This document shows positions 3,980 through 31,938 of a stretch of 32,503 nt of DNA, one piece after another (the first letter of the stretch is position 1; each line of letters begins with the position of its first letter). The stretch lies in contig MFVF01000005.1 of the NCBI GenBank assembly GCA_001785965.1, forward strand, positions 11,329 through 43,831, written 5' to 3'. Both the position numbers and the translations under genes were made by a program. Source of the DNA: Candidatus Nomurabacteria bacterium RIFCSPLOWO2_01_FULL_42_20 (GTDB lineage: Bacteria > Patescibacteriota > Minisyncoccia > Phycocordibacterales > CAZVEC01). The notes under the pieces were generated by a model, which did no database searches, had not been told where the DNA came from, and saw only the letters and a list, made by a program, of their open reading frames with translations.

Positions 3980-4858
3980 ATGCGCAAGCAATTTGTAAAG
4001 ACAATTGAAGAAATATTGAAGGAAGACAAAAGACTAGTGCTACTTTTGGGCGATATTGGCGTTTTTGGTTTTAGGGATTCCTTGAGCCGTTTTCCCGACC
4101 GCGTTTACAACATAGGCATATTAGAGCAAGCAACAATCGGTTTGGCCGCCGGGCTGGCCATGCAAGAGCTGATTCCAGTGGTTCACACCATTGCGCCGTT
4201 TGCCACTGAAAGATGCTTTGAACAAATTAAAAATGATTTCGGTTATCAAAAACTCGGCGGCAACATTGTGAGCGTCGGCGCTTCCTACGACTATGCCGCT
4301 CTCGGCTGTACCCATCATTGTCCGGCCGATGTGGGAATATTAATGAACATTCCGGATATACAAATAGTGGTGCCGGGCGCGGCTTCCGAATTTGATTCTT
4401 TATTCAAACAGGCTTATGCCAATGGAAAAATGACATATTTCAGGCTAAGTGAGCGGGAAAATCAAATAGAATTTCCGGTTAAATTAGGCTGTGCCAATGT
4501 TGTCAAAAAAGGGAAATTGGGAACAGTCATAGCTGTCGGCCCGCTCTTGGATAAAGTCATGAGCGCGACGAAAGATTTGGATGTTACGGTGATTTACCTT
4601 GCGACGATTAGGCCTTTTGATTTTGAAACAATAAGTAAAAATATTGCCGGAGGCAAAGTCTTGATCTGCGAACCTTATTACAGCGGGGCGATTACCGGAG
4701 ATATAATAATGGCTTCAAAACAGCCTCTTAAGATTGACTTGCTCGGAGTTCCCAAAGAGTTCTTAAATAAATACGGCACAATGGAAGAGCATGACGGGCA
4801 TATCGGCTTTACTGAAAAAGATATATTTAATAGGGTAAAACAATTATGCCAAGCATGA
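3980..4858 (+). CDS. Transketolase C-terminal subunit
   Basis: LGDIGVFG...NIGILEQATIGLAAGLA...HTIAPFATERCFEQIKNDFGY. Confidence 0.88.
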   Translation: MRKQFVKTIEEILKEDKRLVLLLGDIGVFGFRDSLSRFPDRVYNIGILEQATIGLAAGLAMQELIPVVHTIAPFATERCFEQIKNDFGYQKLGGNIVSVGASYDYAALGCTHHCPADVGILMNIPDIQIVVPGAASEFDSLFKQAYANGKMTYFRLSERENQIEFPVKLGCANVVKKGKLGTVIAVGPLLDKVMSATKDLDVTVIYLATIRPFDFETISKNIAGGKVLICEPYYSGAITGDIIMASKQPLKIDLLGVPKEFLNKYGTMEEHDGHIGFTEKDIFNRVKQLCQA

Positions 4859-5961
4859 TTTTGCTAAATCACATGGATAAATTCAATAAAATTTTGGAAG
4901 AAGACGCGATTTTAATAAGTAAGAGAGTCAACCTTGAAGAGCTTTTAGGCAAACAGCTTATTATTACCGGCGCATCCGGCCTGATCGGCATAAATTTTTT
5001 AATGTCGTTAAAAGAATTCAGCAGGAAAAACAAAAAGCAAAAACTTCCGCAAATTACGGCGATTTTTTACAATGACGTTCCGAAATATTTTAAAGAAATC
5101 TTAAATTTTGAAAATCTGACAATTAAAATAGGAGATATTACGGATCAAGGTTTTGTAGATTCTTTTCCGGAAGGGGATTATATAATACACGCCGCCGGTT
5201 ACGGCCAGCCGGGCAAATTTATGCAGGACAAAATTAAAACCATCGCTATTAATACGGCGGCAACGCTGTATCTGCTGAAAAAATTAAAAGCCGGCGGCAA
5301 GTTCTTATTTTTGAGCACAAGCGAAGTATATAGCGGTTTATCAAATCCGCCATTTAGGGAAAACCAGATCGGGACGACGAATACAACTCATCCTCGAGCC
5401 TGTTATATAGAAGGGAAAAGATGCTGTGAAGCCATCTGCAATATATATTTTGAAAAGGGAATTCTAGCCAGATCCGCCCGTCTTTCCTTGGCTTACGGCC
5501 CCGGGACAAAGCCTGGGGATATGAGAGTTTTAAACTCTTTTATTGAAAAAGGCTTGACCGGGAAAATTGAAATGATGGATCAGGGAGAGGCCAAGCGGAC
5601 CTATTGCTATGTTTCTGACGCCGTAGAGATGATGTGGAATATTTTGCTTTTCGGCAGACAGCCCGTATATAACGTTGGCGGTTTTTCTGATGTTACCATA
5701 GCAGGTTTGGCAAACAAAATAGGAAAACTTTTAAATGCCGAAGTGGTAACGCCGACGAACGAAGGTGAGGAAGGTACTGAGGTCAGTAGACCGAATGTGC
5801 CACCCCATGATAGAAAAATAATTGGCGCTCCGGATGATGTCCGATTAGACATGAGCCTGGCGGCGGAAGAATTTAAAAAAAGAAAAAATGATTATGTAAG
5901 TTTGGACGAAGGCCTTAAAAAAACCATTGAATGGCAAAAAGAACTTTATAAAATAAAATGA
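4855..5961 (+). CDS. NAD-dependent epimerase/dehydratase (SDR, nucleotide-sugar)
   Basis: IITGASGLIGINF Rossmann motif; LSLAYGPG; possible starts 4846, 4855 (ATGA overlap with upstream stop) or 4873. Confidence 0.85.
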   Translation: MILLNHMDKFNKILEEDAILISKRVNLEELLGKQLIITGASGLIGINFLMSLKEFSRKNKKQKLPQITAIFYNDVPKYFKEILNFENLTIKIGDITDQGFVDSFPEGDYIIHAAGYGQPGKFMQDKIKTIAINTAATLYLLKKLKAGGKFLFLSTSEVYSGLSNPPFRENQIGTTNTTHPRACYIEGKRCCEAICNIYFEKGILARSARLSLAYGPGTKPGDMRVLNSFIEKGLTGKIEMMDQGEAKRTYCYVSDAVEMMWNILLFGRQPVYNVGGFSDVTIAGLANKIGKLLNAEVVTPTNEGEEGTEVSRPNVPPHDRKIIGAPDDVRLDMSLAAEEFKKRKNDYVSLDEGLKKTIEWQKELYKIK

Positions 5962-7962: not shown

Positions 7963-8970
7963 ATGAAAACAAATATTAATTATAAAGATATCGAAAAACT
8001 GTTTGATGATAAATTAAGCGATTATGTCAAAAATAAGATTACCGGCTACAAGCTGGCTTATTCTCCGCTTAGTGAAAATGAGAAGGAGCAGGTTTTAATC
8101 AGAATCGTCAATACTCTGCTTGACCCGTTTTTAGTCTACTCCGGACCGCATAGATTAAAGCAGTGGGAAAAGGGCTGGGGCCAAAATCTTGCAGAGTTTA
8201 AAAAAGAAAAAACAGCTGATTCAGTGTTTCCTCATTACCACGGCAAATACGAAATCAATCGGCTTAATCAAAGTTTTGTCAAAGGCATGTCGCCAAATTA
8301 CGAAAGAAACATGCTTTATGTCATTCTCGATTATGTTTTTGACAAATACTTGAGAGAAGCGGAAAATATTTATGAATTCGGATGCGGCACCGGCCATAAT
8401 CTTCTGAAAGTCCGCGAAGTCAATCCGTCCGCCAATCTTTTTGGCCTTGATTGGGCAAAATCATCGCAAAAGATCATTAAGCAAATGTCCGATTCCGGCT
8501 TAGCGGGAAATATCAGGGGATATAACTTCGATTTTTTTAAGCCGAGTAAAAAAATAAAACTTGCAGATAATTCGACAATTTATACCGTCGCGGCTATTGA
8601 GCAGATCGGCTTAAATTATAAGGCGTTTGTTTCTTACCTGTTAAAAAACAAGCCGGATATTTGCCTGCATGTAGAACCGATCGCCGAACTGCTTGATGAA
8701 AACAAGCTGATTGATAATTTGTCCATTAAGTATTTTAGAAAAAGGAATTATTTAAATGGCTACCTGGATTATCTAAAAAAGCTGGAAAAAGAAAATAAAA
8801 TACAAATACTTGAAGCCAAAAGGACTTACATCGGGAGCCTGTTTATCGAAGGTTATTCAATAATCGCCTGGAAGCCCGTCTACAGGTGCGCATCATCACC
8901 CGATGCGCCCGTTTGCCGCGCTTCAAAGGACGGTGCGCGGCATGATTTCGCTAAATCAAATGACAAATAA
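7963..8970 (+). CDS. SAM-dependent methyltransferase-like protein
   Basis: IYEFGCGTGHNLLKVREV...LFGLDWAK motif I; start MKTNINYKD preferred over 7873 because 7873-7962 is the leader. Confidence 0.7.
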   Translation: MKTNINYKDIEKLFDDKLSDYVKNKITGYKLAYSPLSENEKEQVLIRIVNTLLDPFLVYSGPHRLKQWEKGWGQNLAEFKKEKTADSVFPHYHGKYEINRLNQSFVKGMSPNYERNMLYVILDYVFDKYLREAENIYEFGCGTGHNLLKVREVNPSANLFGLDWAKSSQKIIKQMSDSGLAGNIRGYNFDFFKPSKKIKLADNSTIYTVAAIEQIGLNYKAFVSYLLKNKPDICLHVEPIAELLDENKLIDNLSIKYFRKRNYLNGYLDYLKKLEKENKIQILEAKRTYIGSLFIEGYSIIAWKPVYRCASSPDAPVCRASKDGARHDFAKSNDK

Positions 8971-9874: not shown

Positions 9875-9924
9875 TGCCCGGCACCTGGTATGATTCTACT
9901 GAATCACATATTTTGCTAAATCAT

Positions 9925-10923
9925 ATGCGCAACATTGTTATACAAATATCAAATTACAACAGATTAAAAAAAAATAAGATATTTGATATTGATATTGACC
10001 CTAATTTGTCTGTTTATGTTACATTGAAGGATTTTTTACGAGCGCATGGAATTTCTCTCTTTACCCCTGATATGATAAATAGCAGTGAAACGGAATGCGC
10101 CATTTATATGAATGTGCCATATCCATGGGATATTGAGAGTTGGAAAAAAATTATTCGAACTAAAAATAATATATTGTTTGCCGTAGAACCGCAAATGATT
10201 AACCCGTTTAACTATTCGAAAATCCTCCAGATGTTTTTTAAGAAAATATATACGTGGAATACAGCGCTCGTAGATAATGAAAAATATTTTCAATATAATA
10301 TTGCTCAATCAAATATTGGTTTGGATATTAATACAAAGCCTTTTACGTCCAAGAAGTTTTTAACGTTTGTGGTGGGGAATAAAGGTTTACCACTTATTCT
10401 TTCTATATTGGTGAAGATGGGCATCTTTTCAGAAAAAGAACTCTACAACGAAAGATTAAAAGCACTGGAATATTTTGAAAATAATATACCAGAAAACTTT
10501 GATCTTTATGGAAAGGGTTGGAATAAACCAAAAGATTCTAAAAAATATAAAACATATAAGGGGTCCGTAGATAATAAGATTGAGGTAATTTCAAATTACA
10601 AGTTTTGTTTGTGTTTTGAAAATGCAACAGAAATGAACGGATATATAACTGAAAAAATATTTGATTGTTTTAAGGCAAAGTGTATACCAATTTACTGGGG
10701 AGCGAGTGATATAGAGAAATATATACCAAAAGATTGCTTCATTGATTTTAGAGTTTTTGGCGGCTATGGCGAGCTGATTCTTTATCTTAAGAACATGAAA
10801 GAAGAAGAATATAACAGGCGGATTGACAGCATTGAGAAACTTTTGCTCGACGAGAAATTTATGCGTACTTGGTTTGAAGACGGCTGGGTAAAAGATTTCT
10901 CTAAGAAATTAGGAATTTTATGA
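9925..10923 (+). CDS. Glycosyltransferase family 10 (alpha-1,3-fucosyltransferase-like)
   Basis: YKFCLCFENATEMNGYITEKIFDCFKAKCIPIYWGASDIEKYIP matches the GT10 C-terminal signature; ORF may start at 9874. Confidence 0.85.
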   Translation: MRNIVIQISNYNRLKKNKIFDIDIDPNLSVYVTLKDFLRAHGISLFTPDMINSSETECAIYMNVPYPWDIESWKKIIRTKNNILFAVEPQMINPFNYSKILQMFFKKIYTWNTALVDNEKYFQYNIAQSNIGLDINTKPFTSKKFLTFVVGNKGLPLILSILVKMGIFSEKELYNERLKALEYFENNIPENFDLYGKGWNKPKDSKKYKTYKGSVDNKIEVISNYKFCLCFENATEMNGYITEKIFDCFKAKCIPIYWGASDIEKYIPKDCFIDFRVFGGYGELILYLKNMKEEEYNRRIDSIEKLLLDEKFMRTWFEDGWVKDFSKKLGIL

Positions 10924-14190: not shown

Positions 14191-14313
14191 ATGATTTAAC
14201 AAAATCATGTCGCGTAATGTCGATTGAAACGCGACACTTAATTTAATGATAGCATACAAAGATATTTTGGGTTAAAAAACTAGACGCAGTTTTGCTTTTG
14301 GTGGGATTTAGGG

Positions 14314-19077: not shown

Positions 19078-19103
19078 ATTAGTCAATTGTATCACAAAAT
19101 TTT

Positions 19104-19257
19104 TTGATATATGGATTACCATATATCAACGGCACTCGGACATTGAGCAAATGAATTTGCTCATGCTCCTCGTTTGTTGATATATGGATTACCATATATC
19201 AACGGCACTCGGACATTGAGCAAATGAATTTGCTCATGCTCCTCGTTTGTTGATATA
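19104..19257 (+). repeat. Tandem pair of an identical 73-bp two-hairpin module (19104-19176, 19177-19249) plus partial third start
   Basis: TTGATATATGG-ATTA-CCATATATCAA CGGCACTCGGACAT TGAGCAAAT-GA-ATTTGCTCA TGCTCCTCGTTTG, twice exactly, then TTGATATA. Confidence 0.95.
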
Positions 19258-19286
19258 ATATTAGAATGTTCGTTTTTTAGGTTTTT

Positions 19287-19994
19287 ATGGCTAAGTCTAA
19301 GAAAAAGAAAAAAAGTATTTTATTTAGGGTTTTAATTTTTATTTTGAGCCCGTTTTCGCAGCAGGTTCGCTATCTTATGCTCAAGCTGATGAAAAGATTT
19401 CGGAAGCCGGATGACGGGCGCCCGATTATTGCCGCTTCCGATCATATTTTAGGAGAGATATTACTGCCGTCTATTTTTGCTACTTTTAAAAGTGATAAAT
19501 TTCGAGAGCTTGCCAATTTTAAAAAATTGCCTGTTGCCGAGCACGATCGCATCTTCAATGAGCTTGAGGTTGCGGGTGTATGTCTGGCTGTTTTTTATCT
19601 TGCGGCCATAAAATCGATGCGAAAGCTCGAAGATTACCATTTCTGGCAGAATGTTGAAGAACATTTGCCCGGACAACTGCAAAGAATGCTTATCGGCTAC
19701 GGCGTGGACGGATCCAATGCGAAATTAATGAAAGAGCTGATAGACATGAGGCGCAAGGAATACGAGGAGCTTTCCGAGATATCCTGGGATATGACCGAAG
19801 AACAAAACCCTGAGTTTAGAACTTTGCCGCCGCAAATGAAAGGTTTTGCCTCAAAAATGCAAGCAGCCGCCATTGGTACCGCTGACCATATTCGGCGCGG
19901 CAAAATTAAGAAGGGAGATCCGCTCATAAAATATTTAATCTACTGGTTTTTAGATATGCGCCGAAAAATGGAAAAGTTTGTGAAAAATCTTTAA
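19287..19994 (+). CDS. Hypothetical protein, 235 aa
   Basis: Intact ORF directly downstream of the 73-bp modules; no recognised domain. Confidence 0.6.
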   Translation: MAKSKKKKKSILFRVLIFILSPFSQQVRYLMLKLMKRFRKPDDGRPIIAASDHILGEILLPSIFATFKSDKFRELANFKKLPVAEHDRIFNELEVAGVCLAVFYLAAIKSMRKLEDYHFWQNVEEHLPGQLQRMLIGYGVDGSNAKLMKELIDMRRKEYEELSEISWDMTEEQNPEFRTLPPQMKGFASKMQAAAIGTADHIRRGKIKKGDPLIKYLIYWFLDMRRKMEKFVKNL

Positions 19995-22486: not shown

Positions 22487-22509
22487 GTGGTTGATTAAAA
22501 TTAATTTTT

Positions 22510-22590
22510 TTAATATATGGATTACCATATATCAACTGCGTTCGGACATAAAGCAAATAAACTTGCTTTTGCTCCTCTCTTGTTGATATA
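22510..22590 (+). repeat. Third, diverged copy of the 73-bp module (22510-22582) followed by TTGATATA
   Basis: TTAATATATGG-ATTA-CCATATATCAA CTGCGTTCGGACAT AAAGCAA-ATAAAC-TTGCTTT TGCTCCTCTCTTG TTGATATAAT; same 73-bp length. Confidence 0.9.
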
Positions 22591-22598
22591 ATAAATTC

Positions 22599-29193: not shown

Positions 29194-29197
29194 ATTT

Positions 29198-29273
29198 ACC
29201 CCCACACCTTTCATGGCATAGTTTCGGCACTGCCGAAACGCGCAAAGCGCAATGCCATGAAAGGTGTGGGGGT
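29198..29273. repeat. Long inverted repeat enclosing two hairpins (three-way-junction fold)
   Basis: 22-bp arms 29198-29219 / 29252-29273; inside GTTTCGGC-ACT-GCCGAAAC and GCGC-AAA-GCGC. Confidence 0.9.
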
Positions 29274-29644
29274 TAACTCCACTTCTCTTTCATTTCTTTG
29301 GCTTGACTGCCTTCAAAATTATAACCGGCTCCCGCCCAGTCCATGAGGCCGCCTTCGAAGGCGGAGACATTTTTATAACCGGCCGCCGCCAGCTTAGCGG
29401 CTGATTCGCCGGAGAGCGGGCAAGAGAAACTGGCGCAGTAAACAACAATCTCCTGATTTTTATCTGGGAAAGTTTTTTCTACTTGGGCGACAAAATCGCT
29501 TTGATGGCCATCGATCATGACCGCTCCCGGCAAATGAGCTCGGTCGTAAGAAAATTCTCCCAATGTGTCAATCAGGGCAAAATTTTCCTTGCTGTCAATT
29601 TTCTTTTTTAATTCTTCATGAGTAATAACTTTAAAATTTTCCAT
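29273..29644 (-). CDS. Rhodanese-like domain protein
   Basis: FALIDTLGEFSYDRAHLPGAVMI, IVVYCASFSCPLSGESAAKLAAAGYKNVSAFEGGLMDW. Confidence 0.88.
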   Translation of the reverse strand: MENFKVITHEELKKKIDSKENFALIDTLGEFSYDRAHLPGAVMIDGHQSDFVAQVEKTFPDKNQEIVVYCASFSCPLSGESAAKLAAAGYKNVSAFEGGLMDWAGAGYNFEGSQAKEMKEKWS

Positions 29645-30406: not shown

Positions 30407-30426
30407 AAAGTCAAGCGCGAGCCTGT

Positions 30427-30455
30427 AATTAATCAAGAACCGTTCTTGCTTAATT
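30427..30455. repeat. GCAAGRAC palindrome, copy 1
   Basis: AATTAATCAAGAAC-C-GTTCTTGCTTAATT, one mismatch. Confidence 0.85.
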
Positions 30456-30486
30456 CAACATCCGAGTAATTAAAAAAGCGGCTGAA

Positions 30487-30664: not shown

Positions 30665-30708
30665 TTTTTGTAAAATAAAGCAATATATTAAATATTTGTT
30701 TTTTAATT
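30665..30708 (-). pseudogene. Remnant of a paralogue of the 31579-31938 ORF
   Basis: 39/44 identity, no gaps, to 31653-31696; minus translation IKKQIFNILLYFTKN versus IKKRMFEIFLYFTKN. Confidence 0.55.
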
Positions 30709-30733
30709 AAGCAAGAACGGTTCTTGCTTAATT
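30705..30733. repeat. GCAAGRAC palindrome, copy 2
   Basis: AATTAAGCAAGAAC-G-GTTCTTGCTTAATT, perfect 14-bp arms. Confidence 0.92.
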
Positions 30734-30764
30734 TCGACCTCGGTATTTTGGCTAGTAGTACCTA

Positions 30765-31578: not shown

Positions 31579-31938
31579 TTAGCGGTTTAACTGCATCCAT
31601 TCCGAACTTTCCAGAAGAACGTTTAAATGTTGGCTAGTGTACCAATCATAATTTTTTGTAAAATAAAGAAATATTTCAAACATTCGTTTTTTAATTTGCG
31701 AACTTTCCTGAATAACCTTACTTTCTAAACGTTCCGCACTTTTCTTTTCTGCAAATTGGAAAAAGTTGTGAAGTATGGATGAAACCTCGCTTCCTTCCCT
31801 AGTGTTTTGTTTGTCAATTTCAAAGAGTTCTTTTGCCAAGTTTATATCCTCGGCCTTTATTTTTCGATATTCTAAAAACCGCTTAAAATGACGGCTCTCG
31901 AAAAAACTCTTATATTTTTCTTTTTCTAGATTTTCCAT
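31579..31938 (-). CDS. Hypothetical protein, 119 aa
   Basis: Intact ORF; partial paralogue upstream supports it being real. Confidence 0.55.
   Translation of the reverse strand: MENLEKEKYKSFFESRHFKRFLEYRKIKAEDINLAKELFEIDKQNTREGSEVSSILHNFFQFAEKKSAERLESKVIQESSQIKKRMFEIFLYFTKNYDWYTSQHLNVLLESSEWMQLNR

Follow-up and report, generated by a model that had tools for sequence, protein, structure and literature searches.

Directly upstream of a gene for a GT10 (fucosyltransferase-type) protein, two similar short units lie in tandem and run up to the start codon, raising the question of what kind of element this is and how it came to be there. The window, i.e. the whole stretch of DNA analysed, covers 32,503 nt of Candidatus Nomurabacteria bacterium RIFCSPLOWO2_01_FULL_42_20. 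The first-pass annotation of this DNA had described the site (its copy 3, 9890-9927) as a tandem, partly degenerate start-codon element, and had considered both an RNA structure and a leader peptide. The two units, ATGATTCTACTGAATCACAT (9890-9909) and ATATTTTGCTAAATCATATG (9908-9927), overlap by 2 nt. The features of the locus are as follows, hairpins 1 and 2 being the two parts of the element described below.

9875..9883, plus strand: TGCCCGGCA, a 4-bp palindrome at the expected place of hairpin 1 of copy 3
9890..9907, plus strand: first (inner) hairpin 2 of copy 3, ATGATTCTACTGAATCAC, stem 9891-9896 with 9901-9906, C-G closing pair
9907..9924, plus strand: second (outer) hairpin 2 of copy 3, CATATTTTGCTAAATCAT, the family hairpin minus one G in the 5' arm
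9925..10923, plus strand: GT10 (fucosyltransferase-type) gene, Pfam PF00852, E 2.8e-17

With its match to PF00852 the gene is real, and ATG 9925 is most likely its start codon. The sequence of copy 3 is more than chance: allowing up to 3 mismatches, its unit is matched twice in the window, compared to 0.00 times in shuffled sequence, and the family motif has 6 matches against 0.19 by chance. Both units are present as annotated, including the hairpin TGATTC-TACT-GAATCA (9891-9906), the short ORF MILLNHIFC followed by a stop, and HILLNHM in the GT10 frame; the second unit is the family hairpin lacking one G of the 5' arm. The comparison with copy 1 had been miscounted, as the first unit differs from it at three positions rather than two, the third being a G to A change in the loop. 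Within the window these differences leave the Leu-Leu codons synonymous.

Three further copies occur in the window, listed here with their covariance-model matches, the E-values of which are rough by construction of the model.

4848..4871, plus strand: copy 1, full hairpin 2 with hairpin 1 shrunk to ATGC-CAA-GCAT, E 2e-4
8915..8958, plus strand: copy 2, complete element with hairpins 1 and 2, E 1.4e-16
14192..14235, minus strand: copy 4, complete element, E 2.4e-16

In copy 1 an ATGA forms the stop of the upstream transketolase gene, and an epimerase gene starts at 4873. Copy 2 is read through in frame by the upstream methyltransferase ORF (RASKDGARHDFAKS), with the next gene starting at 8960. 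At 8903-8970 the end of this ORF, with an element-encoded tail RASKDGARHDFAKSNDK, overlaps the start of the next methyltransferase ORF within copy 2. A LamG-domain gene (14190-13114) begins 1 nt downstream of copy 4. Hairpin 1 is intact in copies 2 and 4 and vestigial in copies 1 and 3; both this upstream, GC-rich hairpin and the minus-strand copy 4 (14235-14192) had been missed in the first-pass annotation. The whole genome of this organism (697 kb), searched with sequence patterns and the covariance model, holds 8 full copies, plus copies 1 and 3 as partial ones.

Aligned copies define the element as a double hairpin of about 44-47 nt, in which hairpin 1 (a GC-rich 7-bp stem with an 11-16-nt loop around a conserved TTYAATGGACG) is separated by one base from hairpin 2 (a 6-bp stem, TGATTY-NNNN-RAATCA). 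In 47 aligned sequences 99.3% of the stem cells are paired, and both sides have changed at six pairs. The closing T-A pair of hairpin 2 is replaced by C-G in 12 of 158 copies, and by itself hairpin 2 has little stability (-2.2 to -4.9 kcal/mol). Among 2054 pair cells 1992 (97%) are Watson-Crick, 25 A-C, 12 G-U and 25 other; in a set free of the search pattern there are 3 G-U against 6 A-C. Since these counts are small and biased by both the search pattern and the model, the rarity of G-U relative to A-C only hints at upkeep of a DNA palindrome as much as of an RNA. That the 5' arm might instead pair with GAC in the loop was not supported on inspection of the alignment by eye, because GAC persists there in copies whose 5' arm reads GCC in place of GTC. 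No element in the window or in 8 element-bearing loci matched Rfam above the gathering score, and a known structured RNA family was rejected on this basis. A description of the element was not found in open-licence papers, which is weak evidence of absence. The element is assigned to no described family that we found, and is filed as a variant among mobile palindromic repeats.

The doubling seen in copy 3 has a parallel in the same genome. Copy C11 has two directly adjoining hairpins 2, an inner one closed by C-G and then an outer one closed by T-A, after which comes the ATG; because copy 3 shows the same inner/outer order, it is read as a decayed nested copy. As a partial copy it scores weakly with the covariance model (9883-9906, E 0.06 with its own genome searched), so the nesting rests on analogy with C11 and other copies, element-in-element arrangements being present in other genomes too. 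Copy 3 is probably a decayed, doubled copy of the dispersed repeat, one element having apparently entered another, and TGCCCGGCA is possibly the vestige of its hairpin 1.

The position of copy 3 is typical. Of the 158 distinct copies, all from Patescibacteria, 116 are followed within 12 nt by the ATG of a long ORF, 90 of them at exactly 1 nt, so that the label of a start-codon element was well chosen. On the opposite side no such ATG occurs within 12 nt in any of the 111 copies of the first set, for which random positions gave 5%. The GTDB copies were collected by pattern, and whole-genome searches with the covariance model agree on the start position: in two genomes (G229 and G157) 34 of 37 copies are start copies, 31 at 1 nt. 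A third genome (G015) departs from this, with 6 of 16; nested inner copies account for most of the difference. The genes downstream, named by eye from sequence, are mixed housekeeping genes (NusA, EF-Tu, DnaK, DnaJ, RNase III, ribosomal proteins) with no common theme evident, and two genomes retain the element before rnc and dnaJ. Ahead of the element, at a distance of 3-12 nt, there are 37 TATAAT-like boxes, against 12.5 in shuffles; in the subset where the box abuts the element, the latter would therefore be the whole 5' UTR. At 113 element starts the usual window holds no Shine-Dalgarno motif in any case, and such motifs are scarce at ordinary starts of these genomes too, a 5-base motif occurring at about 6-11% (larger sets, with crude start calls). 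A selfish repeat would not usually land 1 nt ahead of start codons, and this position points to either a function or a targeting step.

A second setting is within genes. All 14 intragenic copies are in the sense orientation and in one shared frame, encode a (G/R/S)RASMDGARHDFAKS-like peptide, and share the structure of the start copies. Their host genes include pgk, ruvC, UDG, secA and ileS (by eye, except pgk).

A GTDB scan gave at least 103 stretches. All but two of the matches listed come from Patescibacteria or from unnamed bins and contain the element in full; the other two, in Neisseria and a Bacteroidetes MAG, look like chance. At the level of the order it occurs in 35 of 247 genomes, with 23, 21, 16, 16 and 15 copies in some, and in a phylum-wide sample in 6 of 382. 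The 23 copies belong to Zambryskibacteria RIFCSPLOWO2_12. Even within one genus, G145 has 11 copies and G187 none found by the model; copy-rich G157 and copy-free G030 form another such pair. These genomes are draft MAGs with crude ORF calls; as far as they can be compared, the distribution among small Patescibacteria genomes is patchy, with gain and loss between relatives.

Individual sites can be followed between relatives. The nusA site is filled in one genome and empty at the same ATG in seven family members with a readable start. The dnaK leaders of G145 and G187 align, with 44 nt extra directly before TATG, and ileS of the same pair differs by a net 39 nt, in frame. The pgk gene of the Nomurabacteria genome itself encodes 13 extra residues relative to its relatives and to the solved structures 1php and 1vpe. 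As the 44-nt core adds 39 nt in pgk and ileS, about 5 nt of target were lost, and no target-site duplication was seen by eye in the flanks of in-frame and start copies. By comparison between genomes the element behaves as a mobile repeat, because relatives have empty sites and copy numbers are patchy.

In the reading we consider likely, Patescibacteria carry a short mobile DNA element that is non-autonomous, a double palindrome of 44-47 bp, and copy 3 is one of its decayed copies, probably a nested one. The sequences themselves show how the element is built, that its pairs are conserved, where, in which orientation and in which frame it sits, and that relatives have empty sites and uneven copy numbers. 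The element would insert as a folded hairpin (cruciform or single-stranded DNA) through an enzyme acting in trans. It would settle in the sense orientation directly 5' of a start codon, becoming part of the 5' UTR of an mRNA without a Shine-Dalgarno motif, or in frame within a gene, adding about 13-15 hydrophilic residues (consensus RASMDGARHDFAKS), and might thereby affect translation or mRNA stability. A more specific proposal, possible but on the doubtful side, is a mobile, portable 5' leader, inserted by start codons that lack a Shine-Dalgarno motif, whose two hairpins, with a single base left between them and the AUG, replace the native region of ribosome approach. If so, scattered housekeeping genes of a genome come to share one structure for translation initiation. 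A functional leader would also be a natural setting in which to test ribosome initiation on structured mRNAs without Shine-Dalgarno motifs.

The same position before start codons can be read as that of a cis-regulatory RNA, the double hairpin being a selected 5' UTR module (for translation control, protection of the mRNA 5' end, or protein binding) and its spread secondary. The preference for the last base before an ATG, its one-sidedness, the conserved pairs and loop, the TATAAT-like boxes that could make the UTR equal to the element, and its retention before rnc and dnaJ all fit this. However, the genes concerned share no evident theme, most relatives lack the element, the same structure recurs in the in-frame copies, G-U pairs are fewer than A-C mismatches (unlike typical RNA), and Rfam is silent. 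The RNA-structure model of the first-pass annotation stands as regards conserved pairing, but covers only part of the picture, given the gain and loss of the repeat, its in-frame copies and the few G-U pairs, and we regard a cis-regulatory RNA as rather unlikely. The companion model, a translated leader peptide (MILLNHM-like) from the element ATG, is rejected as hardly credible. It could draw on the synonymous Leu-Leu changes in the window and on the 1-nt spacing, which puts the element ATG in the frame of the gene, but among the 91 copies followed at 1 nt by an ATG, 17 have an in-frame stop after the first ATG and ahead of the gene, and 22 different heptapeptides occur; 20 of 158 copies have another sequence in place of the first ATG, and about a fifth of start copies are spaced otherwise, mostly out of frame. 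A leader-peptide attenuator was discarded on the same stops and lost ATGs, a conserved translatable short ORF being absent.

Turning from expression to movement, the short palindromes, dimer-like units and intragenic copies would fit a repeat of the REP type that a RAYT (Y1 tyrosine) transposase mobilises. REP sequences are short, palindromic dispersed repeats, some intragenic but mostly located after genes (PMC3733652), and the element resembles them in being short, palindromic, dispersed and partly intragenic. Y1 proteins (PF01797) occur in 146 of the 247 genomes of the order, including the Nomurabacteria genome and most copy-bearing ones. PF01797 is nevertheless missing from G192 (16 copies) and G142 (5 copies), which is weak evidence against a Y1 mover since MAGs are incomplete, and the tie between RAYT and the element is not clear. 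Unlike the GTAG/CGTC superfamilies of REP, the element has no unpaired tetranucleotide tag at its end: GTAG is absent, and although 34% of copies have a C ahead of hairpin 1 (CGTC), the next GTC or GCC is paired. It also lies upstream of genes, not downstream, and a REP/RAYT system is accordingly judged improbable. No mobilising enzyme was found, PF01797 having been checked in the 247 genomes of the order. Hairpins at gene boundaries in a polysaccharide locus could also suggest an attC-like site between glycan genes, for recombination or for the attachment of cassettes, but most copies are before unrelated housekeeping genes or within genes and no cassette array was seen, making such a site very improbable.

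Among known kinds of repeat, the mobile element proposed here appears to work most like the Rickettsia palindromic elements, judged by its in-frame spread. The latter are palindromic repeats without coding capacity of their own that lie in frame in unrelated essential protein genes, their presence varying between relatives (PMC10969869); likewise, the Patescibacteria element occurs in frame in unrelated ORFs (14 copies; 13 residues in pgk, 39 nt in ileS) and is absent from relatives. The likeness is one of description. The Rickettsia elements are about 150 bp, compared to two adjacent hairpins in 44-47 bp here, and the Patescibacteria element is mostly found directly before start codons. The double-hairpin elements of fungal mitochondria, as cited in PMC5910586, have two hairpins in a row and are described as mobile; the shared layout with these organellar elements is a resemblance in design, not homology. 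MITEs are also small and non-autonomous and can form in-frame fusions, but by eye the element shows no terminal inverted repeats with target duplication, each hairpin being its own palindrome. With it, the mobile repeats of bacteria would include one that halts a single base ahead of start codons and is also found in frame in essential enzymes, in a phylum known almost solely from sequence. For annotation it poses a hazard, as it creates false N-terminal extensions (MILLNHM..., MISQNHM...).

Related and unrelated repeats were also noticed. A short-loop variant of the element (e.g. TATAAGGACTT; loci L069, L136, L137 and L141) occurs in several genomes with similar AT-rich and CTCGCGC...CCCCT flanks and no ATG after it, and is possibly a fixed noncoding site. 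At another locus (L027) a lone hairpin 2 makes up the loop of a long, GC-rich and terminator-like hairpin, which has runs of A and T on its flanks. Within the window, a second dispersed repeat of about 88 nt with two palindromes, ending in TTGATATAATA, is found at 19100-19187, 19173-19260 and 22506-22593, shortly upstream of genes at 19287 and 22599. It has 13 matches in the whole genome, about 11 in the query sense, and may carry a promoter. A 41-nt inverted repeat pair (85%; 30418-30458 and 30702-30742) encloses 243 nt, and a 44-nt direct repeat (89%; 30665-30708 and 31653-31696) has its copies 988 nt apart. Between two genes, two 25-nt arms (29195-29219 and 29252-29276), 96% complementary and 32 nt apart, could be a terminator or a small repeat.
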